Assembly (NCBI GenBank): GCA_002686595.1
Contig: NYXZ01000014.1
Location: 1-36,536 of the forward strand
Source of the DNA: Planctomycetota bacterium
GTDB lineage: Bacteria; Planctomycetota; UBA1135; GCA-002686595
Direction: 5' to 3'
DNA: 36,536 nt
A model generated the notes under the pieces. The model was not told the DNA's origin. It saw nothing but the letters and a program-made list of their open reading frames with translations, and did not search any database. This document shows, in pieces, positions 5,552 through 30,258 of the stretch (positions within the stretch are counted from its first letter, which is position 1; each line of letters opens with the position of its first letter). The translations under genes were made by a program, and so were the position numbers.

Positions 5552-5806
5552 CGGATAGTCCGCCGCCTTCCCGATTCGCTGAGGTGAGTGCCGCGTCGGC
5601 GGAGACCTCGGGACATGAAGGTGCAGAGGTGCTGACTGTAATGCCCACTCACAGCCCCTAGAGGCCCGTATTGTTGGCGCTCTCCTAGAGGGGCTTTACG
5701 GATTGTGGGTTCTGTGGGATACAAGGGCACGCGTGCGCGGGTGTCCAGTGCCGAGCCCGGGCGCCTGTTTCCATCCCCAGTCCCGCCACCGCAAGAGGCA
5801 AGACAT

Positions 5807-7288
5807 ATGAGTTGTGCCGGTGTTCTCCTCCTGACCGCCCTTCTGTTTCCCGCGCCCCAGCAATCCTCCCGCATCCAGGTTGAAGGTGAATTCGCCTACG
5901 GCGAGCTGCTGAGCAATCCCACCACCGACAGCATCATGCTCAGCGTGATGCCGCGCCTAGACCTCGAAGTCTATGTGGAATACGGCCGCGCCGCGGGTGA
6001 GATAAACCGTCGCACGCGAGTCTACAACGCCCCGCCCAATAAGCGCTGTAGCATTGGCATCAAGAGTCTGGAACAGGGTCGTCGCTACAACTACCGCCTG
6101 CGCTATCGCGCAGTGGGCGCAGCATCCTTCAAGTTCGGTGAACAACACAGTTTCAGGACCTTGCGTGGGCCTGGACGCACCGTGAGGTTCGCCTTCGGCG
6201 CCGACAGCCACTTGTATAAGAACTGGGCCAATGATGTTTGCAGCCCGCGCCCCACGGGCTCCACCGCCTACTTCCGCCAGACCATTAGGAACATCATGTC
6301 ATGGGAGCCGGATTTCTTTGTAACCGCCGGCGACGAGGCCATGACCCATTGTTTGGGCTGCGCCCCTTGCACGGTGGACGGCAGCTACTCCGGCGCGAAT
6401 ACCGTGCAGAGTATCGAGCAGGCCCGCTTGCGCTATCGCCGAATCATGCAACGCGATCTCTACGGCGCCATGACACACTCAGTCCCGTTTTTCATGGCTT
6501 TGGGAAACCACGATGGGGAGATGACCTGGGGTGGCGTCAATGGATTCTGCGAACACTTTGCCACCACCGATCCACAGAGCGAGTCGGCGCGATTGGATGT
6601 CATGCCGAATCCCTTTTTTACCTACTCAGGCAGCCCGACCGGCAACTACTACTCCTTTGAGACCGGGGACATGTTGATGGTCGTAATCGACTCCCATAAG
6701 ACCATCGCCGACTTCCCCATGGTGGTAGAGGATTGGACTCTGGGCCAGGAGCAGCTGGCCTGGCTCGACCAGACTCTGGCGAACAGTGATAAACATTGGA
6801 AGGTGATCGTCTCGCCTCACATCATCGGCGGCCAGGATGGAGCCAACTGCTATTACTACGGGCGCGGGGGCGTGCGCTCCACGGTGGATGGCACGCCGCG
6901 CAGCGCCTTCCTCGGTGAGCAAGAGACCATTCACCAGATGATGAAGCAGCACGGTGTGCAGGCTTTCCTCTACGGACACGATCATGTGGCGGTGGCGGGG
7001 GAGAAGCAGAACGCAGCGGGGGAAGGCGAGGGTGTGCATTACATCCTCGGCGGACAGCTGGCCCTGAATGCCAGTCCCTGGCGCGGGGAACCCTGGTTCC
7101 AAAACGAAATGGACTGGGACGAGGATGGCGTGGCCGACTATGACAACGGCTACAGCGGCAGTCGTTCAGTGGGCTTCTACCGCGTCACCGTTTTTGACAA
7201 GGAGGCCATGGTCTTCGAGTACATCTGTTCGGACCCGGATGACCCCACGGCCAACAATGTCGTGGAGTTCACCTACACAATTATGTGA
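5807..7288 (+). CDS. Secreted metallophosphoesterase, purple-acid-phosphatase-like, with N-terminal Fn3-like domain
   Basis: Signal peptide MSCAGVLLLTALLFPAPQQ. Metallophosphoesterase motifs: FGADSH, TAGDEA, ALGNHDGE, VSPHIIGG, LYGHDHV. Confidence 0.9.
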   Translation: MSCAGVLLLTALLFPAPQQSSRIQVEGEFAYGELLSNPTTDSIMLSVMPRLDLEVYVEYGRAAGEINRRTRVYNAPPNKRCSIGIKSLEQGRRYNYRLRYRAVGAASFKFGEQHSFRTLRGPGRTVRFAFGADSHLYKNWANDVCSPRPTGSTAYFRQTIRNIMSWEPDFFVTAGDEAMTHCLGCAPCTVDGSYSGANTVQSIEQARLRYRRIMQRDLYGAMTHSVPFFMALGNHDGEMTWGGVNGFCEHFATTDPQSESARLDVMPNPFFTYSGSPTGNYYSFETGDMLMVVIDSHKTIADFPMVVEDWTLGQEQLAWLDQTLANSDKHWKVIVSPHIIGGQDGANCYYYGRGGVRSTVDGTPRSAFLGEQETIHQMMKQHGVQAFLYGHDHVAVAGEKQNAAGEGEGVHYILGGQLALNASPWRGEPWFQNEMDWDEDGVADYDNGYSGSRSVGFYRVTVFDKEAMVFEYICSDPDDPTANNVVEFTYTIM

Positions 7289-7300
7289 GCGCGGCGGCCG

Positions 7301-9724
7301 TCAACGGTCGATGAAAACGCCGTGTTCAGGCTGTAGGCGTTCCTGATTGTTGCGGTCCTCGCCGGCGTAGGCATCGTCGTCGCCGCCCTCCTCAAGAAAG
7401 ATGGAGAGGCTGGTGCCCCCGTGGTAGTCGTTGCCGCCGGCGCGCGCCTCTCCTTCACGCAGGTAGGTGTCGCGCCCGTTGCGTTCGTGGAAGACGCAAA
7501 TTCCGTTGTGAGCCGAGGCCCCCAAGGAGAAGCCGCCGCCTCGGTAACGGTCGTCGCCTCGTTCATCTATGAAGAAGGAAACGGATTCGTCCCAGGCCAA
7601 GCCGTGGGCCACGGAGTTGCGCGTTTCGTAGTTGTCGTCGCCCCCTTCCTCCAGGAAGAAGCCGGCGGCCTGGTGAGCCGAAAAGGCCTGGTTGTAGCGG
7701 GATCCGATGTAGAGGTCATCATCTCTGCCACGATCGAATAGGGCGCCAAAGCCGAAGTAGTAGCCGCCGCCCTGGGCGAAGTTCCCGGCCTCATAGATGT
7801 CCTTCCCGGCGCCATCGATGAGCAGGCCCACGCCGCCGGAAGCGTTGCCGCGGAAGCCAATCCCACAACCTTGGCCCCAACCTTCAAAAACACCTGGGGT
7901 GCCGTAACCGGTGGGCCAACGCCCCTTGCAGTAGTACTCGTCGGCTCCGGCTCGATCCGCCAACACACCCGTACCCCCGGCCAAGCCGACGGCCTGTCCG
8001 TAGCGCAGGGCGCGATAGGAATCCTGGCCAGAGCTGTCCACCAACAATCCCAGGCCCCAAGCGCCAATGCCCTGGGCCAGGGTTTGGGCGTTGAAACGAT
8101 CGTCCCCCCCTTCGTCCAACAGGATTCCGACTCCCATCCAGCCGGCGCCCTGGCACCAACGCCCGGCGGTATAGCGGTCGTCCCCGGCCAGGTCGCGCAC
8201 CACTCCCAGGCCCAGAACCCCGGCCCCCTGGGATCCGTCCTGGGTCCCTTCGTAGGCATCGTTTCCGGCCAGGTCGATCAGGATGCTGGCGGGCAGAACC
8301 GGGCGCCCCAGGGCGTTGGTCGTGGTCCCTCCGGCGGTGTGCAAGTCATCGCCACCCAAGTCAATCAGGAGTGCATCCAAATCGGCTGCCGCTGCATCGG
8401 TGAACTGGTCTCCCCGCCGGTGGAAATCGTCCCCGGTGCCGGCGATGCGGATGCGGCCCAGGGATGTCTGGCGTTCGAGCACCGTGGCCAAACTCGTGTC
8501 GAGGCCGGCTGCTTCGAGGTCAGCCTGCAGGCTATCCAGCCAGTCCCCCATGACCAGCGGTAGGGCGGCGACCGCTGTCGCCAGCATCCCTTGTCGATCC
8601 ACTTTTTCACCGATGCGCAGGGTTTGCTCGTTGCGCGCTGCCCGTTCCGAGTCGGCGTCGTTGTAGAGATAGATGTCATCTTCGAAGCGGTCGATGACAG
8701 AGCGCCAGTGGGTTTCCCCATGGGTGCGTTCGGTCGCGGACAGCCGGGCGAGGCTGGCCTCCCGTAGGGCGGCGATGTATTCGAGATGCTGTTCGAGGAT
8801 GTCGAGCAAAGCCTCCGGCGCCAGGCCGGGGACCGGTGGCGGCGGAGCGCCGTCTTGAACTGGCAGGGGAGCGAGTCCTTCAGTGGCGGCGGCGTGTTCG
8901 AGGAGTCGGCCCAGGCCGGCTCCTGAGCGCCGGGCGAGGTCCCTTTCCTCAAAGCCACGGGCGAGATAATCAGCCAGCTGCGGCAGGGCGAAGGGGCGCC
9001 GGTGAATGTGCGTCATGGCGTGCGAGCGGGAGGCGTCGCCCCGTTCCGCCAAGCGCGCCAGGCGGGCGAGCAGGTCTTGTTGATCCTCTTCCAGGGCGGC
9101 CGTGGCCAGGCGCTTTTCCACTAGGGCGACATGGGGCCAGGAGCGCAGTTGGCCGCCGGGAAACAGGTCTGCGGTTTCGCTGAGGCGCGCACCAGATGTG
9201 CCCGGGCGCTGCCCGATGGTGGCCACCAGGAGTAGGGGGTGCCATTTCTTGGAGGCGCTTACGGCCAGGGAGCTGCCCGGCGGTAGGCCATCCAGGATCT
9301 TGCTGAAATGACGGGCGGTTTCGGCGGCGTCGTCCGTCTCCTCCCCGTTGCGAGTTCCAGAGAAGATCACGGTCGGGCGCAGTATTTCCAGGGCCAAACG
9401 GTCACCCACCGCGCTCTTCCCCAGGCGTTCCATGAACCCCGCCAGAGCGCCCTCCGGCGTATTCCCAAAGGGAACCGTGTCGAGGGCCAGCAGGATGTCT
9501 CCCGTGGCGAAGCCGCTGCGGTGGCAGGGGCCACCGTTGACGACCCGGACCAGATGCACGCCTGCGCGCCGGCCCGAGATGGCGGCCGCGGAATCGTCGA
9601 GAGCTACTCCCGCCAGCTGGGCGCCGAACCAGACCTGTTCATCAGGCCCCGGTTGCGGCTGGAGCGGAGGGGCTGATGCTATGGTCAGGAGCGGGGCCAG
9701 GAGCGGGAGAAGGCGGATATCCAT
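7301..9724 (-). CDS. Exported PDZ-domain protein with C-terminal GxDxY repeat array
   Basis: Signal peptide MDIRLLPLLAPLLTIASAPP; PDZ-like segment GVHLVRVVNGGPCHRSGFATGDILLALDTVPFGNTPEGAL; C-terminal half made of repeats such as LLDEGGDDRFNAQTLAQGIGAWGLGL. Confidence 0.85.
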   Translation of the reverse strand: MDIRLLPLLAPLLTIASAPPLQPQPGPDEQVWFGAQLAGVALDDSAAAISGRRAGVHLVRVVNGGPCHRSGFATGDILLALDTVPFGNTPEGALAGFMERLGKSAVGDRLALEILRPTVIFSGTRNGEETDDAAETARHFSKILDGLPPGSSLAVSASKKWHPLLLVATIGQRPGTSGARLSETADLFPGGQLRSWPHVALVEKRLATAALEEDQQDLLARLARLAERGDASRSHAMTHIHRRPFALPQLADYLARGFEERDLARRSGAGLGRLLEHAAATEGLAPLPVQDGAPPPPVPGLAPEALLDILEQHLEYIAALREASLARLSATERTHGETHWRSVIDRFEDDIYLYNDADSERAARNEQTLRIGEKVDRQGMLATAVAALPLVMGDWLDSLQADLEAAGLDTSLATVLERQTSLGRIRIAGTGDDFHRRGDQFTDAAAADLDALLIDLGGDDLHTAGGTTTNALGRPVLPASILIDLAGNDAYEGTQDGSQGAGVLGLGVVRDLAGDDRYTAGRWCQGAGWMGVGILLDEGGDDRFNAQTLAQGIGAWGLGLLVDSSGQDSYRALRYGQAVGLAGGTGVLADRAGADEYYCKGRWPTGYGTPGVFEGWGQGCGIGFRGNASGGVGLLIDGAGKDIYEAGNFAQGGGYYFGFGALFDRGRDDDLYIGSRYNQAFSAHQAAGFFLEEGGDDNYETRNSVAHGLAWDESVSFFIDERGDDRYRGGGFSLGASAHNGICVFHERNGRDTYLREGEARAGGNDYHGGTSLSIFLEEGGDDDAYAGEDRNNQERLQPEHGVFIDR
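7304..8368 (-). repeat. About 12 degenerate protein repeats, roughly 26-28 aa each ([LF]xDxxGxDxY...QGxGxxGxG)
   Basis: Read in translation: LIDLAGNDAYEGTQDGSQGAGVLGLGV / VRDLAGDDRYTAGRWCQGAGWMGVGI / LLDEGGDDRFNAQTLAQGIGAWGLGL / LVDSSGQDSYRALRYGQAVGLAGGTGV / LIDGAGKDIYEAGNFAQGGGYYFGFGA / FLEEGGDDNYETRNSVAHGLAWDESVSF / FIDERGDDRYRGGGFSLGASAHNGIC and others. Confidence 0.8.
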
Positions 9725-9850
9725 GCACCCATTCTGTGCGTTGGCTCTAGGTCAAGCCAGGATGCCGTGGCCCGTGGCCCGTGAACTGGTTGAGGGTTCG
9801 CTGCAAGGCTGGGCCAGCTTCCCTTGGCCGCACTCTGTGGATGCGGTGGG

Positions 9851-10726
9851 CTAGTTCGCGCTGCCCGCCCGCTTCCGCAGGGCCGTCGTTCTCTTATCTC
9901 GCCTCGCCAGCCGCCCTTGGCGCGCGTGAAGTTCCCCGGATTCCAGATCGCGCAGCAGCTCGCGGGTCTGCTGCGGCGTGAGTCCCCTGGGGCGCAGCAA
10001 GCTCCTGTGGCGCCTGTGGCGCCGGCTGCGCTCCTCCAGGCTGCGCAGGTGGCGTGTGCGGGACCTGGCCTTGGTGCGCGTCCCCACCAAGGTAAAGGCA
10101 GTGCCAAGCGTTTCTCCAGACCTTGTGAACTGGGCCAGGGCGCGGCCGCGTTCTGCGGTGGCGTGGCCGAGTTGTGTCAGGCGCATGGTCTCGCGCGTGG
10201 GAGTAATGGTCGTGAAGCCGGCCTGTTCGACAGATACGCCCCAGGCTTCCAGGCGGCGGGAGAGGTTTTCGGTCAGCAGCCGGTCGAGGGCCGGGCCGCC
10301 GCGGGCTTCCCGTTGGCTCGCCGAGCGCAATACTTCCTGGACACCCAGTCCCAGCATCTGCCCCATGCCCTTCTCCAAATCGTCGATCTCAACCAGCGCC
10401 CGGCGCAGGTCGCTGATTCGATAGACCAGGTTGGCATCGACGGTGAAGACGAAACCAGCCAGGGTCGTAACCCGTTGGGCGGGCAGATCGAGAGTGCGCG
10501 AACGGGTGGGCAGGGGCTTGGCCACTTGCAAAAACGGAATCAACCAGTGGAAGCCGGGGTCGAGCACGGCCCCGGCGCGACCGCCGGGGAAACGCAGGGC
10601 CCGTTGCCCGCTCTGAACCGTGATTCCCATGGCGCGCACGATAGTGCCCCCCAAGGCGAAGAGCGCCATCATCAGGTCCCGCCGGTGCTCCTCGAAGAGC
10701 TCCTGCAGCCACGCGAAATCCATCAA
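9851..10726 (-). CDS. SPFH/band-7 domain protein with Arg-rich C-terminal tail
   Basis: VQSGQRALRFPGGRAGAVLDPGFHWLIPFLQVAKPLPTRSRTLDLPAQRVTTLAGFVFTVDANLVYRISDLRRALVEIDDLEKGMGQM; same architecture as the adjacent paralog. Confidence 0.8.
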   Translation of the reverse strand: MMDFAWLQELFEEHRRDLMMALFALGGTIVRAMGITVQSGQRALRFPGGRAGAVLDPGFHWLIPFLQVAKPLPTRSRTLDLPAQRVTTLAGFVFTVDANLVYRISDLRRALVEIDDLEKGMGQMLGLGVQEVLRSASQREARGGPALDRLLTENLSRRLEAWGVSVEQAGFTTITPTRETMRLTQLGHATAERGRALAQFTRSGETLGTAFTLVGTRTKARSRTRHLRSLEERSRRHRRHRSLLRPRGLTPQQTRELLRDLESGELHARQGRLARRDKRTTALRKRAGSAN

Positions 10727-10765
10727 GCACGCTTTCGGTGGAGTCCGAGGGAGGTGTCCGTGGCG

Positions 10766-10787
10766 CTAGCGCTACCCATGGCGCTAG
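10766..10787 (-). repeat. Short inverted repeat in the SPFH intergenic junction
   Basis: CTAGCGC-TACCCATG-GCGCTAG, perfect 7-bp arms, overlapping the stop codon of the upstream SPFH gene. Confidence 0.35.
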
Positions 10788-11542
10788 TCATCATCGGCAC
10801 TCTCTGAATCCTGTTCCCCAGCCTCGTTTTTCTGCTCCCGCTCTTGGCGCAGACGCTCCTCCTCCATGCCGTCGATGGAGCGCGAAAGGGCCTCTTCCTC
10901 GCGGCGCATCCCTGCTCGGGAGGGCGGGGACTCATCTGGCGCGAGGGATACCACCGCTCCAGCCAACAGAGCCACGGCCGCTTCCTCCCCCAGGCCGCCG
11001 GTGCGCATGGTGCCGAATAGGCGCAGTTTCTCCCGGGCGAGCAGCTCCATTTGGGTGATCTCCAACGTGGCCGGGGACGGCGAGATGTTTGAGAAGCCGA
11101 ACTGCAGGATGCGCACGCCCCACTGTTCTTCAACCGGTGCGAGGGCTTGTTGAATCTCCAGTGAGAGAGCCTGGGTGTCCTTGATGGACTCGCGGTCCTG
11201 GGCACGCAGAATGGTCTGTACCGCCAAGACCACGCGGTTCTGCAGCCCCGTGACCAGGTCATCGATTTCGATGATCGCCTTGCGCAGGTTGACGATCTGA
11301 TAAACGACCTTGGCGTCCACTTCGTAGACCAGGTCGTCCTTCAACTGGATCACCTGCGGTTCCAGGTCCAGAGTAGTGTGCTTGGTCTCCTCCGTGCGGA
11401 AGGTCTGCACGATGGGCAGCTTGAAATGGATGCCCGGGGGCACGACCGACTTGGCGCGGCCAAGGGTGAATTTGAGGGCATGCTGGCCGTCGTAGACAAC
11501 GACAAAGATGCCCGTGACGGCCTGGAGGAGTTCGAGGAACAT
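10784..11542 (-). CDS. SPFH/band-7 domain protein with acidic C-terminal tail
   Basis: VVVYDGQHALKFTLGRAKSVVPPGIHFKLPIVQTFRTEETKHTTLDLEPQVIQLKDDLVYEVDAKVVYQIVNLRKAIIEIDDLVTGLQNRV...QWGVRILQFGFSNISPSPATLEITQMELLAREK. Confidence 0.87.
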   Translation of the reverse strand: MFLELLQAVTGIFVVVYDGQHALKFTLGRAKSVVPPGIHFKLPIVQTFRTEETKHTTLDLEPQVIQLKDDLVYEVDAKVVYQIVNLRKAIIEIDDLVTGLQNRVVLAVQTILRAQDRESIKDTQALSLEIQQALAPVEEQWGVRILQFGFSNISPSPATLEITQMELLAREKLRLFGTMRTGGLGEEAAVALLAGAVVSLAPDESPPSRAGMRREEEALSRSIDGMEEERLRQEREQKNEAGEQDSESADDD

Positions 11543-11692
11543 GTGGTGGCGTGGATTGGGTGGTGGGCTGGGGGGGCTTCAGGCGGGCTAAATCGCAGCC
11601 ATAAAATGACGCGCTGGCGTCCCCGGCGCCGATGATAATAATGAAGATCCCGCAGGAACCCTTGACGGGGACATCAATATCCGTAGCCTTTT

Positions 11693-11717
11693 ACGGCTCG
11701 AAATCTTCCGGAGCCGT
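11693..11717 (+). promoter_or_regulatory. Hairpin in the leader region of fusA
   Basis: ACGGCTC-GAAATCTTCCG-GAGCCGT, perfect 7-bp arms in the fusA upstream region, downstream of a weak TTGACG -35-like element. No T-tract follows on either strand. Confidence 0.3.
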
Positions 11718-11823
11718 GCTGGGCCGGTAAAACGCCAGTGCCGCTGCTCTGGAGATCCGTTTCCGGCCCGCAGGCCACTTTCACTTCTCCTCCAGTTGGG
11801 GGAGCATTCCACTCCGATAGATC

Positions 11824-13932
11824 ATGACCGCCGTCCTCAAGACCGAATCCCCTCCCCGTACCAACTCCCAAAAGGGAGGCCACCTGCGCCGCAACATCGG
11901 CATCATGGCGCACATTGATGCGGGCAAGACGACCGTGACCGAGCGCGTCCTGTTCCTGACCCAGCGGATCCACCGCACGGGTGAGGTGCACGATGGTGCC
12001 GCCACCATGGACTATCTGGAGGAGGAGCAGAAGCGGGGCATTACGATCCAGTCCGCGGCGACCACCTGCGAATGGCTGGACCATACGGTTAGCATCATCG
12101 ATACTCCCGGGCACGTGGACTTCACCGCCGAGGTGGAGCGCTCGCTGCGTGTGCTCGATGGGGCGGTGGCCGTGTTCGATGCTGTCAGTGGCGTCGAGGC
12201 CCAGTCTGAAACAGTCTGGCGCCAAGCCGACCGCTATGAAGTGCCGCGCATCTGCTTCATCAATAAGATGGATCGCGTCGGGGCCGATTATTGGGCTGCC
12301 GTACAGTCGATTCGTGACCGCCTGGACGCCCGTCCGATTTCATTGCAGATGCCGGTGGGGTCTGAGAAGGACTTTCGGGGCTTCGTGGATCTGGTGCGCA
12401 TGAAATACATCGAGTTTCCGGATGATGGTGATGGCCACTCATACAATGAGAGCGAAGTGCCCGCTGAGTGTCTCGAGGAGGCCCGGGCTCGCCGCCATGA
12501 CTTGTTGGAAGCAGCCGCGGAGAATGATGAGGATTTGCTCGACATCTTCGTGGAGGATGGCGAGGTCAGTGAGCAACAACTCGTTGCCGCCCTGCGCAAG
12601 GCGACTCTTGAGCTGTCCCTGACGCCGGTCGTGTGTGGCTCTGCCCTCAAGCACAAGGGCGTGCGTTTCGTGCTGGACGCGGTCATCGATTACCTGCCTT
12701 CGCCCCTGGATATCAAGCCTTTGGAAGGGGACAACCCGGACCGCCCCGGCGAGACCGCCGTGCGCAGGCCTGATGAATCAGAGCCGGTCAGCCTGATGGC
12801 CTTCAAGACCATCGCAGAGCCCACCGGCGATTTGACCTTTGTGCGCGTGTACTCGGGCGTGCTGCGCAAGGGCGAGAAGCTGCTGAATCCGCGCACGGGC
12901 AAGACCGAGCGCGTGGGGCGCATCGTCCAGATGCACGCTGATAAGCGCGAGGCTCTCGATAGTGTGCCCGCCGGAGATATCGCCGCGGTGATTGGCCTCA
13001 AGCGCACTGTGACCGGCGACACCCTCTGCGACCAGGACCAGCCCATTGCGCTGTCTAAGATCGAGTTTCCAGACTCAGTGATTTCCATGTCCATGGAGCC
13101 CAAGCGCTCCGAGGATCGTGACAAGCTCTCTGAAATTATCGGGCGCATGATGCGCGAAGACCCGACCTTCCGCGCCACCACCAACGAGGAAACCGGCGAG
13201 CTGGTCATCTCGGGCATGGGCGAACTCCACCTGGAGGTTGTCGTGAACCGCATCCAGGGCGATTACAAGTGTGGTGTGCAGACCGGCAAGCCCAAGGTGG
13301 CCTACAAGCAACGCCTCAGGAAAATGCGCGAGGTCGAAACGCGCTATGTGCGCCAAAGTGGTGGCCGGGGCCAGTTCGCCGTCATCCATGTGCGCTATGA
13401 GCCCTTCGAGACGGAAGACGGCGGCCTGGAGTTCGAGGACAAGATCCGCGGAGGCAATGTGCCCCGCGAGTACATTCCGGCCGTGGAGGCCGGTCTGCGC
13501 GAGGCTTTCGCCGGTGGCGGCACCACGGGCTTCCCGTTTGTGAATGCCAAGGCGACCTTGTACGACGGCAAGTCCCACGACGTGGATTCCAGCGAAATGG
13601 CCTTCCACAGCGCCGGCGTCTTCTCATTCCGCGAGGCTACGGATCACAACACGGTTCTGCTCGAACCGGTCATGAAGGTGGAAGTGCGCGTGCCCGAGGA
13701 ATTCCTGGGTGCCGTGGTGGGGGACCTCAACTCGCGCCGGGGGGAAGTCTCGGAAGTAGATAGCCAAGGCAACCTGCGCATCGTGCGCTCGATGGTGCCG
13801 ATTGCGGAGATGTTCGCCTATTCGTCGTCCCTGCGTGGCGCGACCCAGGGGCGCGGCAACTATTCCATGGAGCTGGCCGAATACCGCGATGTGCCTGCGG
13901 CCATCGCGGAGAAGGTCCTCAAGGAAGAGTAG
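11824..13932 (+). CDS. fusA: Translation elongation factor G
   Basis: [96 protein letters not shown]-terminal [19 protein letters not shown]. Confidence 0.97.
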
Positions 13933-13998
13933 CCCCGGGAATCAGCCTTGGCTGAGAACTTGGTTGGCAGAGCTCCCGCCGGTGCCTAGGATTGGTCC

Positions 13999-15024
13999 AT
14001 GACCAGCACGGCCAGAAGGCGTTGGACGCGTGAAATCCGCAGCGAGGTGGATGGCATTGCCATTCACCCCCAGGGCCCCGTCCTGCTCCACGGCTATGAC
14101 CCGCCGGCCGGGGGCATGTGGTTGGACGATGTCATTCCTGGGAAGCTGGGAGCCCTCGATCGGAATACCGGGGAGACGCTTTGGTTGGCCCCCTGTGAGG
14201 TGGGCTATGGCCGCGGCTTCGGTGCTGGCTTCGGCGCGGAAAACGACTTGGTGGTGCTCGGACCCAGCGCCAATGGCCATCGCATCGTGCGCATGTCGCT
14301 GATCGATGGTCAGTTGATGAGCGCGGCTACCATCGAGCCCTTTGATGTGGCCGTGGTGGAGCAGGATGTCTGTATTTGCCTGACGCCCAACCGCATCTTC
14401 GGCCTCGCCACCGATTCCCTGACCGAGGTCTGGGAGTATTCACGAGAAGGGGAGCGTTTTCACCACATCGGCCGTTGGGGGCAGCTCGTCTTTGTCGTCT
14501 ATACGAACACCAACACCGGCAAGCAGGGAGTCCTGTGCCTCACGGCGGACAGCGGAGAGTTTTCCCATGTGCTCCTGAGCCCGGTGCAGGATGTGATCCA
14601 CGAGCTGGCCGTGGGGGCCGGAGGCCTGGTTGTCTCCTCGGCTGACATTCTCGGGTTATTGGCGCCGGATGACATGCAAGCCTATCTCTCGGCCCTGGCT
14701 GTCCACGACGAGAGCGCCACCGCCGACACCCTGTCGCTGGTGGCCTTGCGACATGACCACCAGAGCGGGGATGGCCCGCTCTGGCATGAGGTGCTCAGTT
14801 GCGCACCAGTTGATGAGCTGCCGGATCTGCGTGTCCACAGCAACAACGACAAGCTCTACCTGATGCGCGGGGCTTGGTTGGAGGTGCGAGACATCTTGAC
14901 CGGCAGGGCCCTGGGCGATTGGACCGTGCCGGGCTTGGATGAGAGTGTGGCCTGGACCGTCTGCGACGGTGCCGGGTTCCTGGCGGAGGAAACACGCGTC
15001 TCCATCTTCGAATTGCCGGCCTGA
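13999..15024 (+). CDS. Hypothetical PQQ-like/beta-propeller-type protein
   Basis: Blade-like motifs GKLGALDRNTGETLWLAPCEVG and GLATDSLTEVWEYSREGERF; no signal peptide apparent. Confidence 0.55.
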   Translation: MTSTARRRWTREIRSEVDGIAIHPQGPVLLHGYDPPAGGMWLDDVIPGKLGALDRNTGETLWLAPCEVGYGRGFGAGFGAENDLVVLGPSANGHRIVRMSLIDGQLMSAATIEPFDVAVVEQDVCICLTPNRIFGLATDSLTEVWEYSREGERFHHIGRWGQLVFVVYTNTNTGKQGVLCLTADSGEFSHVLLSPVQDVIHELAVGAGGLVVSSADILGLLAPDDMQAYLSALAVHDESATADTLSLVALRHDHQSGDGPLWHEVLSCAPVDELPDLRVHSNNDKLYLMRGAWLEVRDILTGRALGDWTVPGLDESVAWTVCDGAGFLAEETRVSIFELPA

Positions 15025-21903: not shown

Positions 21904-22806
21904 TCAGAACTGCAGTTTCATGCAGAACAGCGAGCCGCCGCCCTTGAGGAATTCAGAAGTGTCCAGCTCCCGCAGGGCGTAGTTCCAGGAACGCAGTCCC
22001 CGCGCAGATTCCGGGCAGTTAGACGGCAGCAGTACCGTGTGTCCATCGGGGCAGAGAAGATTGCAGGCCAGACGTCGGCGGGCCTCGTCTTCCGGGGCGA
22101 CCAGGCGTTTTGGGAAGGCGAGCTCCACCAACCCTCGCCCCGCTGCGTCGAAAGCCTCCGGGAACCAGAGACAGTGCTCTTCGTCCAGCAGCGCCAAGCA
22201 GGTGTCCAAGTGATAGAAGTCAGGGTCAGCCAGGTTCAGGAGGATGATTGGCAGGTCATAACGCTCGGCCAGCTCCGCCCAGGCGCGCTCGTCAGAACGG
22301 GGGCCAACGCCGGCCCACAACAGGCGGCGTCCGGGATGCCAGAGGCCGTCGCCGGTGCCTTCAAGGGGAGCGGCTGATTCAAGCGCGGGGGCGCAGGTGA
22401 CGCCCCGGGAACGCAGAAACTGCAGCATGTGGTGCACCTCGTCGGCTCGCTCTGAACTAGCCATTTGTGACGGCAGCACAGCCGCCTCCGGACCCTCCAG
22501 GCCCGGGGGCAGGGGCAGGGCCGGATTGGCGCAGAACACCAAGTCCGGGTGCTGTGCCAGGGGCGGCATCACCATCAGTTCGACATCCAATTCAGAGCAG
22601 GCCCGGTGCAGGGCCTGCCACTGTTCCCGGGCCAACTCCCGATCCACGACCTGCAGCTCGCCATCCTCATCCACCATGTGTGGATTGATCGCATAGTGCA
22701 CATCGTAGTCCCGGGGATCGGCCAGCAGGATGCGCTTCGGGCGGGGAGTGCGGGGCAGTTCAGTCGGGCTGAAATCGAGCTCGGTTGCCGTTCTGATCAG
22801 GGGCAT
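21904..22806 (-). CDS. Amidinotransferase/guanidino-group hydrolase family protein (DDAH / arginine dihydrolase-like)
   Basis: YAINPHM, MPPLAQHPDLVFCANPAL, EGTGDGLW, FYHLDTCLALL, and catalytic-Cys motif FLKGGGSLFCMKL. Confidence 0.9.
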   Translation of the reverse strand: MPLIRTATELDFSPTELPRTPRPKRILLADPRDYDVHYAINPHMVDEDGELQVVDRELAREQWQALHRACSELDVELMVMPPLAQHPDLVFCANPALPLPPGLEGPEAAVLPSQMASSERADEVHHMLQFLRSRGVTCAPALESAAPLEGTGDGLWHPGRRLLWAGVGPRSDERAWAELAERYDLPIILLNLADPDFYHLDTCLALLDEEHCLWFPEAFDAAGRGLVELAFPKRLVAPEDEARRRLACNLLCPDGHTVLLPSNCPESARGLRSWNYALRELDTSEFLKGGGSLFCMKLQF

Positions 22807-22815
22807 GTTCTCACC

Positions 22816-25800
22816 CTACCAGATCCGTTCAGCACGCAGGGTGTGTGCTCCGAGGTGTTCATCCACAACACCGGTGATGCACAGGGCACCGCGTTCCGCC
22901 AGGCGTTGACCGTCCCGGCGATAGACATCCGGGAAGAGCACCGCTTCCGCCACACCGGACTCGTCCTCCAGCGTCACGAAACGCATCCAGTCTCCCTGCT
23001 CTGTTTGCAGGCGCCGGGTGGCCGCCGGCCAACCGCGCAGGGTGATGCGCCCACCGCGAAACTTGGCCAGCCGGGCACAGGGCGTGGGGCGGGGCGGTCG
23101 GCGGCCGCTGGCGGCGGCTCGTTCGTCTGCTGGGCAAGGGAAGATCCGCAGGGGGTGGTCGGTGAGGGTGAAGCCGAGCAACTCGAACTCCAGTTGCCCC
23201 CTGGTTTGACGATCCGTATCAGGCAGCCCCGGGAGAACCACGGCGGAGAGTGGAGGGGCGGGAAACAGGGAGCGCGTTCCGTGTCTGGACGGGGGAGTGT
23301 CCCCAAACCCCAGCCCCGCCTGTCCCCAAGCGCCGCTCCGAGCCGCCTCAACTTTCTCCGTCCGGCGGCTTTTCGGCGTGGCGTTGCAGGAATCCAGGAC
23401 ACCCATGTCCAGGGGACCTGCCTCGTGGACCGCTGCCCCTTGGGGCAACCGTTGGCGCGGGGTGCGCAGCAGGTGCAGCCGCCAGAGGAGTTCCGGCCGC
23501 GTGCGGTCGAAGTCATCGAGGGCTCCGCACTGGATCAGGTTCTCGGCCTCGTCACCGTGGGCGCCGCTGCGTTCCATGAGGTCCGGCAGGGAAGTGAAAG
23601 CGCCGCCTGCGGCACGGGAAGTGAGTATGCGTTCGAGGGTCTGTTGGGAAAGACCTTTCACCTGGCTCAGTCCCGTACGCAGGGTGGGTTGTGGATCATC
23701 CTCGTTCGATTGCTGACCAGCTTTGGCGGTGTTCCATTCCACCGCGAAGCTGCGGGCACTGCGGTTCACACTGGGCCCGAGAATGGGGACGCCCAGGCGT
23801 CGAGCCTCTTCCACATAGACGCGGCGTGGGTAGTAGCCGGTTTCGCTGGCCAGGAAAGCGGTCATGAAAACCGCCGGGTAGTGGGCCTTCAACCAGGCTG
23901 TGCGGTAGGCGATGCGTCCGTAGGTGACCGCATGGGCTTTGCAGAAGGCGAAGGAGGCGAAGTTGGCGATCAGTTCCCAGGTGCCGCGCACTTCGCTCCA
24001 GGGCAGGCCCTCTTCCGTGCAACCGCGCTGAAACTGTGCGCGGAGATCGCCGGTATCCCGCCCACGCCTGTTTTGCAGGGCGCGTCGCAGGAGGTCGGCC
24101 TGGCCCAGGTCCATGCCGGTCAAGAGCGACACGGCCTGTAGCACATCCTCCTGGTAGAGCATGATGCCGTGGGTGTCCCAGAGCAGCTCGGTCAGGCGTG
24201 GATGGGGCGGTGTGGCCGGCTCTAGACCGCGGAAGCGGCGCACATAGGCGTCCTTCATGCCGGCGCCCGCCGGTCCGGGCCGAATCAGGGCAATGGCCTG
24301 GATGACATCATCCATGGTCTGGGCACCGCTCTGTTGGAGCAGGCCGCGCATACCCGGAGATTCGATTTGAAAGCACCCGATGGTGCTGCCCGTGGCGAGC
24401 AGACGCGCCGTGGCGGGATCGTTTTCGGGGATCGTTTCCAGTTCGAGCTGGCACTCCTGTTCGGCGAGCGTTGCGAGGGAGTCGGCGAGGACTGTCAGGG
24501 CTCGATTGCCCAGCAGATCCATCTTCACCAGGCCGACAGCTTCAACCGGGTCCTTGTCGAACTGCGTCACCACCATGCCCGCCGCGGCCCGCTGGCAGGG
24601 TGAGAAGTCGGTGATCGGTCCGGGGGAAACGACCACTCCTCCGGGGTGCAAACCGAAATGGCGCGGCGCGTCCAGCAGGCCCGCCGCCGCTACCAGGACC
24701 TTTCGCCAACGCTTGTCTTCGAACGGAAAGGCGCGGGCCTCCGGGGCGCTGGCCAGGGCGCCCGCCACGGGATTGTTCGCCAGTCCAGGTGCTGGGACAG
24801 CGAGGCCGGGGGACGATTCATGATGATAGTGGGGCAGGCGCTTAGCCCAACGGTTCACCAGGGCCGGGGGCTGTCCCAGGGCCAGGGCCGCCTCGCGGAA
24901 GGCGGAGCGCAAACCGAAGCGGTTCAAGGTGCAGATCATGGCCGTGCGCTCGGCGCCGAACAGTTCGTAGACATGTTCGAGCACCTCTTCCCGTCGCCGC
25001 CAACAAAAGTCGAGGTCGATATCCGGGCGGTCGCGGCGCTCGGGGTTCAGGAAGCGTTCGAAGGGCAGACGATAACGCAGGGGATCGGCGTCGGTCAGGT
25101 ACAGGCAGTGGGCCACCAAGCTGTCCGCCGCCGAACCGCGCCCGACACAGGGAATGCCACGCCCGCGGGCGAAGTCGGCGATGTCCTTGACCAGCAGGAA
25201 GTAGGGGGCAAAGCCCAGGTCGTTGATCGTGGAGAGTTCCTGGGCGAGGCGCCGCAGCACTTCCGGTCGCAGGGGGCGATAGCGTTTGCTGGCACCTGCG
25301 AAGGCCAGGGCTGACAGGCGCGAATAGGCGCTTTCACCGGCGGCCAGGGCGACTTGTGGAAAGTGGACACCGCCTAGGGGCGGCGTGTAGCGGCAACGCC
25401 GGGCCACGGCCAGGGTGCGCGCTAGGGCGCCCGGAAGCTGGCGCTCTTGCGGCGAGGCGTCGCTGGTGTGTGACCAGGGCCCAGCTATCTCTTCCAGCTC
25501 CGCGTAGAGGGCGACCATCTCCGCCGCGGAGAGCAGGTGCGCCGGGGCCTGTGCCAACCATTTGGCTGGTACCTGCTCGAGTAGGGAACGGGCGCCGATG
25601 GCCACGCGCAAACGATGTTGGGCGTGGTCCTCGGCCCGGGCGTGATATACATCTGGAACAGCCACCGTCGCCACGCCCGTGGCCCGGGCTGCCTCCAGCA
25701 TGACATGGGCGGCCACGGCCTGGCCTGGCCCGACGCGCTCTGGTTCGCTGGCAGTGGTGCCGCTGCCTTCATCCGCTCCCAGCGGCGCGCGCGGGTCGCG

Positions 25801-26343
25801 TTCAATGGGGTTCAGGTGCGCGTTGCGCGTGGTGCCCGTTCCGCGGCGTTGGCCCGTGTCCTTGGCCAGGGAGGCCGGCGAGATAGCGGCCAGGACATTG
25901 CGCGCCGGGACGCGCTCGTGGAGTTCGATGAGCAGGCGTGGATGATCGGCGAGAAAGATCAAACCCTCCTGGTACCGGGCCGCCTGTCGCGCCAGATCGA
26001 AGTCCTCCAAGGCCGGTAGGGTGTTCCCGTGGCTGCCGGGGTCGCCGCCCAGATGCCGCGCGGATAGCAAACGGCACAGGTTGCGATAGCCGGTTTCGCT
26101 CTCCACCAGGGCGATCAGGCGTCCGGGAGCGCCGTTCACCTCCGAGAGTTCCGCGGCGACGATGGGGCGTGGGCCTCCGTCGCCGGCGGCTTGCAGGAAC
26201 TCCACCAGACCCGCCAGGCTGTTCACATCAGCCAGGGCCAGGGCCGGCAGGCCCAGTTCCCGGGCCCGCTCCAGCAGGGCGGCTGGCCGATCGACGCCGC
26301 AGAGCAGGGAATGGTGCCCGTGGGTTCGCAGGGGGACATACAC
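22816..26343 (-). CDS. dnaE2: Error-prone DNA polymerase III alpha-like subunit (DnaE2)
   Basis: N-terminal PHP region YVPLRTHGHHSLLCGVDRPAALLERARELGLPALALADVNSLAGLVEF; polymerase motifs VGRGSAADSLVAHCL, RRDRPDIDLDFCWRRREEVLEHVYE, GIMLYQEDVLQ, FCKAHAVTYGRIAYRTAWLKAHYPAVFM; C-terminal OB fold. Confidence 0.92.
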   Translation of the reverse strand: MYVPLRTHGHHSLLCGVDRPAALLERARELGLPALALADVNSLAGLVEFLQAAGDGGPRPIVAAELSEVNGAPGRLIALVESETGYRNLCRLLSARHLGGDPGSHGNTLPALEDFDLARQAARYQEGLIFLADHPRLLIELHERVPARNVLAAISPASLAKDTGQRRGTGTTRNAHLNPIERDPRAPLGADEGSGTTASEPERVGPGQAVAAHVMLEAARATGVATVAVPDVYHARAEDHAQHRLRVAIGARSLLEQVPAKWLAQAPAHLLSAAEMVALYAELEEIAGPWSHTSDASPQERQLPGALARTLAVARRCRYTPPLGGVHFPQVALAAGESAYSRLSALAFAGASKRYRPLRPEVLRRLAQELSTINDLGFAPYFLLVKDIADFARGRGIPCVGRGSAADSLVAHCLYLTDADPLRYRLPFERFLNPERRDRPDIDLDFCWRRREEVLEHVYELFGAERTAMICTLNRFGLRSAFREAALALGQPPALVNRWAKRLPHYHHESSPGLAVPAPGLANNPVAGALASAPEARAFPFEDKRWRKVLVAAAGLLDAPRHFGLHPGGVVVSPGPITDFSPCQRAAAGMVVTQFDKDPVEAVGLVKMDLLGNRALTVLADSLATLAEQECQLELETIPENDPATARLLATGSTIGCFQIESPGMRGLLQQSGAQTMDDVIQAIALIRPGPAGAGMKDAYVRRFRGLEPATPPHPRLTELLWDTHGIMLYQEDVLQAVSLLTGMDLGQADLLRRALQNRRGRDTGDLRAQFQRGCTEEGLPWSEVRGTWELIANFASFAFCKAHAVTYGRIAYRTAWLKAHYPAVFMTAFLASETGYYPRRVYVEEARRLGVPILGPSVNRSARSFAVEWNTAKAGQQSNEDDPQPTLRTGLSQVKGLSQQTLERILTSRAAGGAFTSLPDLMERSGAHGDEAENLIQCGALDDFDRTRPELLWRLHLLRTPRQRLPQGAAVHEAGPLDMGVLDSCNATPKSRRTEKVEAARSGAWGQAGLGFGDTPPSRHGTRSLFPAPPLSAVVLPGLPDTDRQTRGQLEFELLGFTLTDHPLRIFPCPADERAAASGRRPPRPTPCARLAKFRGGRITLRGWPAATRRLQTEQGDWMRFVTLEDESGVAEAVLFPDVYRRDGQRLAERGALCITGVVDEHLGAHTLRAERIW

Positions 26344-26350
26344 GGGCCAG

Positions 26351-27880
26351 CTACTTGTTCAGGGAGGGTGTGCGCAGGCGGAAACCGTCGGCTTCCAGGG
26401 GCAGGGTGCCTAGGAGCTCCAAGCTCGGGCCGCGCAGGATGCGGCCAAACCCGTGACGGGCGCGCAGGGAGTCCACGGCCAGGTCCAGGGCCCGGTGATG
26501 TTTGGGACGCCCTGGGCCTTGGGGCTGTTCAGAAGTTCCGTCGCCGAAGAGTTGTCCCTGCCAACCGCCATTGGCGGTGAGCTTGAGCAAGGTGACGCCC
26601 ACGGTTTTCACGAGGGTGCGACGCTGATGTAGTTCGCGCAGCAGGGTACGAGCGTGCTGCCACAGTTCCGCTGTGCAGTCAGTTGGAGTGTTGAGCTTGC
26701 GCCGCTTGCGTTGGCGGCGCCCGCTGTCCGGCGGCACGCTTTCCCCGCTCGGCGACCGGGTGTCCACATGGGCCAGGTGCACCTCCAGGGAGCCGGCCCG
26801 CAGGTTGAACTCGCGCAGGCTTTGGGCCGCCCGTTCGATCAACCAGGCCAACATGGCCGCGACCCGTTCACGGCTGGCCTCCTCCGGCTCGAAGGTGCTG
26901 TCACGGCTGATCGAACGGGGGGCGCGGATACTGAGCAGTTCGCCGCCGTCCGCCTCGCGGGTCAGTTCATGGGTGGGTTCCACGGGACGGCGGTCGATGC
27001 CCCGGGCCCGTTCGTGGAGCACGAGCCCGAGGGAGCCAAAGCTGGCGAAGAGCACCTCCCGTGAGACCTGGGCCAGATCGCCCACGGTGCGCAGGGCGAA
27101 GCGTTCGAGGAGTTTTTGTGTCGCGTGTCCCACGCCGGGCAGGCGGGCGACGGGCAGGTTGCGCAGGAAGGCCGATTCGTGTCCCGGCAGGAGTTCAGCC
27201 AGGCCCCGGGGAGCGGAGCCGGCCGGGCGCGGCGAGGTTTCCTTGGCCACCTTGCCGATGATGCGGGCCAGGGGGATGTTGGTGGCGATGCCGATGGTGA
27301 GCGGCAGGTGCAGTTCCTCGTGGACGATGCGGGCCATGGCCAGGGCTGTGTCCCAGGCCGAACCGTGTAGGCGCGTGGTCCCCGAGAGATCCACCAGGAA
27401 GTCGTCGATGGAGGCCACTTCCACCCGTGGGCTGAAACTGAGCAGGCGCCGCAGAACCGCTTCCCGCAGGCGGCTGGCCGCCCGGGAGTCCCCGCGGCGA
27501 AAGACGGCCTCTGGGCAGCGGCGGGCGGCCTCGCCCAGGAACATGCCCGGCCACACGCCGCGTGTACGCGTCTCGTAGGAGCAGGACATGACCAGGTTGC
27601 GGTCGCCGGGCAGGCCGCCGACGATCACCGGCCGGCCGCGCAGTTCCGGGTGCAGGGCCTGTTCGACGGAGGCCAAAAAGGCGTCCACATCCAGGTGCAG
27701 GATGCGGCGGGTACGGGGTGAAAGGTGGCTGTCGCGGTGGGCACCACCGGCGGAGATGCGAGGAGAACCCGAGGAACTGATGTCGCAGCTTCCCGAGTCG
27801 CTTATCCGTTGCCGTGGCGCAGCAGCGGGGTCGTCTCGGCCGTCCCGTTCGAGGTGGTTTGATGTGGCGTCAAGGGGCAT
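26351..27880 (-). CDS. Y-family DNA polymerase (DinB/ImuB-like)
   Basis: RILHLDVDAFLASVEQ, SCSYETRTRGVWPGM, VEVASIDDFLVDLSGT, LTIGIATNIPLARIIGKVAKETSPRPAG, LPVARLPGVGHATQKLLERFALRTVGDLA. Immediately upstream of dnaE2. Start uncertain: a TTG at 27925 is also possible. Confidence 0.9.
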   Translation of the reverse strand: MPLDATSNHLERDGRDDPAAAPRQRISDSGSCDISSSGSPRISAGGAHRDSHLSPRTRRILHLDVDAFLASVEQALHPELRGRPVIVGGLPGDRNLVMSCSYETRTRGVWPGMFLGEAARRCPEAVFRRGDSRAASRLREAVLRRLLSFSPRVEVASIDDFLVDLSGTTRLHGSAWDTALAMARIVHEELHLPLTIGIATNIPLARIIGKVAKETSPRPAGSAPRGLAELLPGHESAFLRNLPVARLPGVGHATQKLLERFALRTVGDLAQVSREVLFASFGSLGLVLHERARGIDRRPVEPTHELTREADGGELLSIRAPRSISRDSTFEPEEASRERVAAMLAWLIERAAQSLREFNLRAGSLEVHLAHVDTRSPSGESVPPDSGRRQRKRRKLNTPTDCTAELWQHARTLLRELHQRRTLVKTVGVTLLKLTANGGWQGQLFGDGTSEQPQGPGRPKHHRALDLAVDSLRARHGFGRILRGPSLELLGTLPLEADGFRLRTPSLNK

Positions 27881-28023
27881 CTCGTCGGAGCTGGTCGGGT
27901 CTCCTTGCCCGCACAACCCTAACAAAGCCCTAACTGACGATCCAGTGGAGAACGCCCCGCGCCCGGGCTTTGGATCCCAGTTCCCAACCCCTTGCGCCGG
28001 CGCAACTTGGGTACAGTGCTCCG

Positions 28024-28575: not shown

Positions 28576-30258
28576 TCAGGGACCGAAGCCGCGCCAGAAA
28601 TCACGGGCGACTTGTTTGTCGTCCGTGTGCTGCAAGAGGATCAGTGAAGAGCCTGCGGTGGACTGGCCCTCGGCTGGCAGGGGATAGGCCACGGCCTGGG
28701 TGCAGTCGAGCAGCGCCGCCTCGTTCCCGTCGGCGAACACGCGTCCGTGCAAGACCGCGGTTGCGCGGCGGAAAGCATCGAAGCGACCACCGGTAATTTC
28801 GTGGTCCACGAAGAGCACCTCGTACCAGGTCGGTTCGTCGGCGATAAAAAATGAACGCGGCACGCGCTTGTCATGTCCGGCGGAGCGCGTGTCAGTCACC
28901 TGGCCGTGGGCGACACGCCGTTCCACCAAGCCGTTGCGGTCCAGGATCCGGGCGCCGGAGTAGTAGCCCAGGGCGCCGATGGCGCCGGCCACCAGCGTGG
29001 CATCGCCGCGCTCGAGTTGGGCCAAGCCGCGTCCGATGCGGGTGAAGTTTTCCACATTGCGCTGGCCGGTTTGCCAGCGCTCCAGTTCGGACTGATAGCC
29101 CGTGCGGAAGGTGCGGAAGTTCATGGCCTCGCGCAGCTCCAGCGGGATCGGATGCAGGCCGAAGGCCGGTGCCAGGGACAGGCCGCAGGCGAACAGGCCC
29201 AGGGGCCAGGAGCCGAATCTGGCGCTGGATCCGGGCACGGCCGGGGAAGCCAGGGCCAGCGCCAGGATCAGGGCCAGGAAAGGACCGGCCGGGGCGAGGA
29301 AACGGAAAAACGGCATCCAGTCGCCGCCCACGAACACGGTCCAGGCGGCCAGGCCTCCGAGCAAGAGGCCGGCGGAGCGCGCCTGGGAGGCGCCGGGACC
29401 GCGCCAGGTCAGGGGCATGAGCAGCAAGATCAGGGGCACGGACAGGTGCACGAGCCCGAAGGAGGCCAGGGTGCGCAGGCCCCTCTGGAGAACTTCAAGG
29501 TTGAAGCCGGACTTGGCGTGGACCGTGTTGGGCAGGGCCTCGCCAAACCAATGGAGGCGGGCGGCGGTCAAGAGCACTCCGGACGCGATGGCAACCCACA
29601 GGAATGTGCGTCGGCGGCGGGCGGGCGGCGCGTCCCCGGCTGGGTTTGCGCGGATCGTCACGAGAAAGAGCCCCAGGGCCCAGGCCAGGCCTTCCACGCG
29701 CAGGCCCACGAGCAGGGCGGGCAGCAGTACCGCGAGCAGGCCGGCGCGGGTGGAGGGGAGTGCCAAGAGGCGCCAACTGGCGAAGAGCGTCAGGGAGAAG
29801 GCGGCGGTTTCCAGGCCGCCGGTGGCCCAGACGGCGGCGGGCGTGAAGGTGGCGAGGCACAGGGTTCCGAGGAAGAGGGCGCCGCCGCCGAGGTTCAGGT
29901 CTCGGCGCAAGGTGTGCCACAGGAGCACCAGGCTGCCCAGGGCGCAGGCGATCGAGAGGGCGAGGGAGGCGATTTCCGGGGCGCAGCCCAGGAGCTTGCC
30001 CAGGGCCAGGGCGGCGATCCAAAGGGGATCGCTGAAGCCTTCCACGGGCCGCGGGTTGTCCAGGTGATAGCGCAGGCCCTCGCCCGTGGCCCAATGGACC
30101 GCGTAGCGGAAGGCGATGAAGGCATCGTCGACCAGAAAGTTGAAGCGCCAGATGAGCCCCAGGAAAACCGCCAGGGGCACGAGTAGAGCCAGGGCTTGGC
30201 GCGCCCCGAAGGCATGGGTGCCTGGGGCTTGGGACCTGAGGGTGGGAGGGGAGGACAT
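28576..30258 (-). CDS. Polytopic GT-C-type membrane glycosyltransferase (arabinofuranosyltransferase-like)
   Basis: FLVDDAFIAFRYAVHWATGEGLRYHLDNPRPVEGFSDPLWIAALALGKLLG resembles the GT-C DD-containing first loop; multiple hydrophobic segments follow. Confidence 0.75.
   Translation of the reverse strand: MSSPPTLRSQAPGTHAFGARQALALLVPLAVFLGLIWRFNFLVDDAFIAFRYAVHWATGEGLRYHLDNPRPVEGFSDPLWIAALALGKLLGCAPEIASLALSIACALGSLVLLWHTLRRDLNLGGGALFLGTLCLATFTPAAVWATGGLETAAFSLTLFASWRLLALPSTRAGLLAVLLPALLVGLRVEGLAWALGLFLVTIRANPAGDAPPARRRRTFLWVAIASGVLLTAARLHWFGEALPNTVHAKSGFNLEVLQRGLRTLASFGLVHLSVPLILLLMPLTWRGPGASQARSAGLLLGGLAAWTVFVGGDWMPFFRFLAPAGPFLALILALALASPAVPGSSARFGSWPLGLFACGLSLAPAFGLHPIPLELREAMNFRTFRTGYQSELERWQTGQRNVENFTRIGRGLAQLERGDATLVAGAIGALGYYSGARILDRNGLVERRVAHGQVTDTRSAGHDKRVPRSFFIADEPTWYEVLFVDHEITGGRFDAFRRATAVLHGRVFADGNEAALLDCTQAVAYPLPAEGQSTAGSSLILLQHTDDKQVARDFWRGFGP

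Follow-up and report, generated by a model that had tools for sequence, protein, structure and literature searches.

Calcium-binding solenoids, HtrA-type PDZ proteins, and right-handed beta-helix enzymes

In the beta-rolls of RTX proteins, the GGxGxD turn binds Ca2+ through two glycine carbonyls together with the aspartate carboxylates of successive turns; when Ca2+ is absent, the stacked aspartates repel one another (PMC6891781). A solved variant of this arrangement is 3p4g, the Ca2+-dependent beta-helical antifreeze segment (region IV) of Marinomonas primoryensis, which is built from RTX-like repeats of the form xGTGNDxuxuGGxuxGxux (PMC3492233). The HtrA/Deg family (DegP, DegQ, and DegS) provides a further point of comparison: the protein described here, P0001, resembles it in its PDZ domain, recognized by profile (1e-13) and by fold, and differs from it in lacking the trypsin-like protease domain. 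Right-handed beta-helix enzymes of the pectate-lyase type carry their active site on consecutive solenoid rungs of approximately 27 residues, with Arg, Asp, His, and Tyr clustered at one place.

P0001 is encoded on the minus strand of the window analysed here, which is the whole stretch of 36,536 nucleotides from a Planctomycetota genome, and it shares features with each of these systems while departing from all of them. Like 3p4g, it has a predicted solenoid whose strands are hydrophobic and whose rungs each contribute a single acidic G-x-D turn to one edge; unlike 3p4g, it has 26–31 residues per rung rather than 19–21, an Asp in place of Gly at the first turn position, a Tyr after the turn, and a conserved polar pocket and a PDZ domain, outside a giant adhesin context. 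As read from the alignment, neither P0001 nor its relatives show in register the outward Thr/Asx ice-binding array at turn positions 3 and 5 (PMC3492233). With the RTX nonapeptide roll it shares the G-x-D-x-hydrophobic turn geometry and, by implication, stacked Asp carboxylates. However, the family has one turn per approximately 27 residues and no tandem GGxGxDxUx nonapeptides, PF00353 is matched in none of 47 members at E up to 0.1 (PF08548 in two, at E 0.047), and P0001 bears an N-terminal signal rather than an uncleaved C-terminal type I secretion signal. On the grounds of repeat length, the missing PF00353 match, and the N-terminal export signal, we rejected RTX membership, in agreement with the preliminary description, which had considered the repeat distinct from RTX. 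The pectate-lyase-type enzymes offer the idea of an active site laid across consecutive rungs, but P0001 has no sequence match to them, and its fold matches are not significant; with no profile match in Pfam or the PDB, membership in that superfold was likewise not assigned.

Gene and domain organization

The repeat-bearing segment at 7301–8368 corresponds to residues 453–807, the C-terminal part of an 807-residue open reading frame (7301–9724, minus strand), which relatives match over nearly its full length at 47–50% identity. The features are as follows:

7301–9724, minus strand: whole gene of the 807-residue protein P0001, with ATG start and stop codon included (open reading frame and alignment)
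9671–9724, minus strand: signal peptide, approximately residues 1–18 (MDIRLLPLLAPLLTIASA; sequence reading)
9350–9637, minus strand: PDZ domain of HtrA type, residues 30–125 (Pfam, family profile, Foldseek)
8510–9175, minus strand: all-helical region without a family match, residues 184–405 (AlphaFold2 secondary structure)
7304–8485, minus strand: predicted beta-solenoid domain, residues 414–807 (AlphaFold2)
7307–8362, minus strand: twelve D-x-x-G-x-D-x-Y rungs, residues 455–806, forming a probable cation-binding edge (motif, autocorrelation, alignment)
7838–7933, minus strand: conserved insertion within the 47-residue rung, residues 598–629, with Y607, Q618, R625, and S629 (alignments A1 and A2)
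7409–7906, minus strand: putative pocket residues, between residues 607 and 772 (66-sequence alignment; codons checked)
7673–7675, minus strand: H684, 8 residues ahead of the rung-closing acid (66/66 in A2; 44/47 in A3)
7589–7591, minus strand: D712, at the matching corner of the next rung (66/66 in A2; 46/47 in A3)

When P0001 is searched as a single sequence, Pfam PDZ_2 is reached at E 1.4e-4, below the gathering score, and the family profile matches the HtrA-type PDZ domains of DegQ and DegP in the PDB at approximately 1e-13. Foldseek recovers HtrA-family chains and isolated PDZ domains, so that profile and fold both place the domain with the HtrA type. The linkage of a signal peptide and a PDZ-like domain to the repeats, proposed earlier, is borne out by the visible leader and by this profile match. 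For the helical region, we obtained a single sub-threshold Pfam match, to GfcC-N over residues 192–238.

Phyletic distribution and domain architectures

The gene is present in one copy in the source genome, and its nearest relatives come from Planctomycetota metagenome-assembled genomes (MAGs) of the same family or order. Protein searches turned up relatives in 22 of the 61 near genomes and, in a phylum-wide sample of 294 Planctomycetota genomes, in 129; the distribution within the family (22 of 81) and order (39 of 154) of the source genome is patchy. Scanning genome contigs with the single sequence found nothing, and an alignment-based scan found 103 relatives, of which 80 were kept. These belong to Planctomycetota, Eisenbacteria, SAR324, Deltaproteobacteria, Lentisphaerae, Verrucomicrobia, Calditrichaeota, Schekmanbacteria, and Beta- and Gammaproteobacteria, and individual placements may be wrong because most relatives are MAGs; a named strain, Amphritea balenae JAMM 1525, is among the relatives. 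The viral contigs, phages, and plasmids scanned yielded none.

The combination of PDZ and solenoid is a common architecture, and the rung layout is shared by most members. Variants include C-terminal HEAT repeats (L017, L025, and L027), an N-terminal FG-GAP/ASPIC module (L135), and, on sequence reading, an apparent second PDZ domain (L043). The repeat domain has no convincing family match in Pfam (47 members searched) or NCBIfam (56 members), and the solenoid profile has none among PDB sequences; hence, no already described repeat family in these libraries accounts for it. A text search of the literature with motif and peptide strings returned no relevant paper, although paywalled papers or other databases may hold one. 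By sequence comparison, P0001 represents a large, multi-phylum bacterial family without a description in the curated databases or literature searched.

A twelve-rung solenoid predicted from degenerate repeats

The preliminary description had proposed about 12 degenerate GxDxY repeats, and this number stands: we find twelve rungs, in order 29, 27, 26, 26, 27, 47, 27, 28, 28, 27, 31, and 28 residues long, that is, mostly 26–31 with one of 47. The pattern [DEH]xxGx[DN]x(1-2)[YFH] matches P0001 at 11 places, all within the repeat region (starts at 455, 484, 511, 537, 563, 590, 637, 692, 720, 747, and 778); 20,000 shuffled versions of that region contained 0.37 matches on average and never more than 5. 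Ten rungs align with one another at a mean score of 27.8 against 2.1 +/- 1.3 for shuffles; both tests are optimistic because the pattern and the rung borders were derived from P0001 itself. The twelfth rung, at 664, carries the variant DRGRDDDLY. Mean pairwise identity among the ten rungs (36%) is about that of the shuffled control (32%), and BLOSUM autocorrelation peaks at lags of 27 and 28. Conservation of the rungs across 66 relatives is independent of the motif and borders chosen from P0001. As to the repeat unit first described, its D-x-x-G-x-D-x-Y half occurs in nearly all rungs, whereas its QGxGxxGxG half is clean in only about five, with other, more conserved sequences standing in its place in the last six.

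AlphaFold2 models a solenoid both for the full-length protein with its 66 natural relatives (pLDDT 91.8, pTM 0.90) and for the domain alone (pLDDT 93.8, pTM 0.93), with approximately three short predicted strands per rung. The input alignment was deep, natural, and diverged, with a mean column identity of 29–43%. The solenoid fold of P0001 is, as a model, predicted with confidence, and the expectation of a beta-solenoid with periodic acidic positions is upheld at that level. A search of the PDB with the solenoid gave no significant match; the top hits were chains of 3p4g (E 0.46, probability 0.33, TM 0.31–0.37), which are weak. Nothing significant emerged from a library of viral folds, and the search with the full-length model was dominated by the PDZ domain.

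Overlaid on the RTX turn G-G-x-G-x-D-x-U, the D-x-x-G-x-D-x-Y turn retains the second Gly and the Asp but has an Asp where the first Gly would be. Between 9 and 11 of the 11 rung aspartates are present in every one of 47 diverse members. With two aspartates in each rung and many rungs stacked, counter-ions would be required, and cation binding by the acidic edge is therefore strongly implied. By analogy, this edge may work as in RTX proteins, and the RTX-like turn, along with a weak best fold match that is itself a Ca2+ solenoid, makes Ca2+ a plausible ligand.

A conserved residue set in the C-terminal rungs

The solenoid is not uniform. Near-invariant residues outside the repeat consensus (R625, Y655, R676, H684, W711-D712, N740, N765, and Y767-H768) are found in the six C-terminal rungs 6–11 and in none of the five rungs that precede them. 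In the 66-sequence alignment (A2), identities of 95–100% are reached by Y607, Q618, R625, Q651, Y655, R676, Y677, H684, W711, D712, N740, N765, Y767, H768, and S772; R625, Q651, R676, H684, W711, and D712 are invariant in all 66 sequences, and Y655, Y677, N740, N765, Y767, H768, and S772 are kept in at least 95%. Among positions that lie outside the turn motif and are neither Gly nor Gln, the 95% level is reached by none of 47 in rungs 1–5 and by 16 of 76 in rungs 6–11 (Fisher p = 0.0005, to be read as descriptive since the sequences are kin). S629, Y656, H684, D712, and H739 each lie 8 residues ahead of the rung-closing acid in consecutive rungs, and H768 lies 10 ahead, so that their placement at the same corner is one of sequence register. 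The rung aspartates together with R625, Y655, H684, and D712, by which we define the family, are all present in P0001.

This pattern extends to a wider set (A3, n = 47) that includes members without PDZ and members with HEAT or FG-GAP partners, where H684 is kept in 44 and D712 in 46. Two members, L020 and L028, retain 11 of 11 rung aspartates, but of the pocket residues tested hardly any remain in them, L028 keeping an Asp at 712; in L027, part of the set is gone. The pocket is therefore separable from the fold, and loss of such a residue set without loss of the solenoid pattern is what would be expected of a binding or active site rather than of a folding requirement. The earlier view of the protein as a scaffold was incomplete in this respect, having overlooked near-invariant polar residues in rungs 6–11 that point to a ligand or active site. 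The conservation suggests that a cation-stabilized solenoid bears a pocket for binding or catalysis, whose composition of His, Asp, Arg, Tyr, and Asn makes a catalytic role plausible. Because the PDB yields no sequence relative of the solenoid and no significant fold match, the predicted pocket is without a link to known chemistry.

Genomic context

Applying a simple rule rather than SignalP to 76 relatives, we scored 18 as carrying a lipobox and a further 44 as beginning like a signal peptide, 62 of 76 in all, and family members are on this basis likely to be exported. Two SPFH/Band 7 genes lie in tandem upstream of the solenoid gene on the same minus strand (10784–11542 and 9851–10726), and it possibly forms one operon with them; a metallophosphoesterase gene on the plus strand (5705–7288) converges on it. 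None of these adjoining genes is a shared feature of the relatives. The SPFH genes do not recur in clusters of at least three loci among the relatives' neighborhoods, and no widely recurring partner that might hint at a substrate was seen there. The neighbors encode, among others, VanZ-like and BrkB membrane proteins, LolA-like proteins, sulfatases, Tricorn, S9 peptidases, and M16.

Some local arrangements are worth recording. In three gammaproteobacterial loci, a gene for a VanZ-like membrane protein overlaps the solenoid gene by approximately 3–15 bases or abuts it (L121, 3855–4706; L126, 4970–5857; L127, 7347–8213), suggesting a coupled pair in those loci. A gene related to LolA, the outer-membrane lipoprotein sorting factor, lies immediately upstream of the solenoid gene at L110 (2156–3001) and L113 (2541–3308). 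At L078, genes for a Tricorn-type S41 peptidase and an S9 prolyl oligopeptidase (8601–14127) follow the solenoid gene; related Tricorn genes occur at L082 and L122, and S9 genes at L082 and L134. Elsewhere in the window, on the minus strand, a DnaE-type polymerase III alpha subunit gene (22816–26343) adjoins a Y-family polymerase gene (26351–27925) and an unassigned 300-residue open reading frame, a set spanning 21904–27925 that looks like an ImuA/ImuB/DnaE2-type mutagenesis cassette. A further 560-residue open reading frame (28576–30258, minus strand) has no Pfam match at E 1e-4.

Proposed function and alternative explanations

Computation establishes the repeats, the family, and the conservation pattern and predicts the fold with confidence; we infer export, bound cations, a function and substrate for the pocket, and a partner for the PDZ domain, in the following model. 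The signal peptide would export the protein to the envelope, as a lipoprotein in several relatives; the PDZ domain would dock the C-terminal peptide tail of a partner and so bring the solenoid to it, with the helical region serving as a spacer between the two. Each D-x-x-G-x-D-x-Y turn would set two carboxylates on one edge, and a row of cations, most likely Ca2+, would sit between the stacked carboxylates as in RTX rolls, as these would otherwise repel one another. At another corner, six consecutive C-terminal rungs would present S/Y, H684, W711-D712, H/N739–740, and Y767-H768 in equivalent or nearly equivalent positions, and R625, R676, and the conserved insertion would lie near that corner. 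The most likely role of the pocket so formed is to bind a glycan or peptide substrate in the envelope or outside the cell, which it probably also processes. To this reading—an exported envelope protein combining PDZ, helical spacer, and a cation-edged twelve-rung beta-solenoid with one conserved pocket—we assign a probability of roughly one half. Its more specific form can be put forward only tentatively: an exported enzyme of a new class that is common in Planctomycetota and also occurs in several other phyla, with an active site of His684-Asp712 together with Arg625, Arg676, Tyr655, and His768 across six rungs of a Ca2+-edged beta-solenoid, having no significant PDB fold match and no curated family.

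The main rival to the pocket is a passive calcium-stiffened scaffold or adhesin, a solenoid rod whose conserved C-terminal residues serve folding or capping only. We regard it as rather unlikely, even though the closest, if weak, solved fold is the RTX-derived adhesin segment 3p4g (PMC3492233), Pfam and NCBIfam give no enzyme family match, and the gene neighbors are not conserved. The invariant H, D, R, W, N, and Y residues are spread over six rungs and not just the end, and L020 and L028 retain their rungs without them. Moreover, rod-like adhesins usually have uniform repeats in variable rung number, unlike the layout common to most members here.

That P0001 is a divergent but true RTX protein, secreted by the type I route, seems improbable: the overlay of the two turns, the two Pfam Peptidase_M10_C (serralysin C-terminal) matches at E 0.047, and the weak match to RTX-derived 3p4g favor it, but they have to be set against 47 members devoid of PF00353, a spacing of approximately 27 residues per turn rather than 9 (RTX) or 19–21 (MpAFP), and a signal peptide or lipobox at the N-terminus instead of a C-terminal secretion signal. 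Just as little credence attaches to a lyase, esterase, or hydrolase acting on carbohydrates and built as a right-handed beta-helix of the pectate-lyase superfold, for which the likeness in rung length and in the Arg/Asp/His/Tyr cluster is a lead only; P22 tailspike does appear among the fold matches, but at E 4–10 and probability 0.02–0.03, and no such Pfam family is found in any of the 47 members. Finally, the solenoid itself might be an artefact, the region being disordered or otherwise folded, as there is a report of AlphaFold2 confidently predicting solenoids that are not real, including ones with stacked charges, negative ones among them (PMC11795689). That study worked on perfect repeats of random sequence and named Ca2+ solenoids as the exception (PMC11795689), while here degenerate repeats and a natural alignment reduce the concern without removing it altogether. 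With periodic hydrophobic strands conserved in a fixed register, we give the artefact a very slight chance.

Implications

The domain occurs in 129 of the 294 sampled Planctomycetota genomes and in other phyla, and yet it has no family model in the libraries searched. The P0001 family offers a concrete test case for whether the confident acidic solenoids of AlphaFold2 are real when calcium is present. Should the pocket prove not to be catalytic, the family would still represent a new solenoid of the calcium type, for which the pocket-less members L020 and L028 provide natural controls. If the pocket is catalytic, it would mean a new enzyme fold and a handle on the poorly understood envelope biology of planctomycetes.
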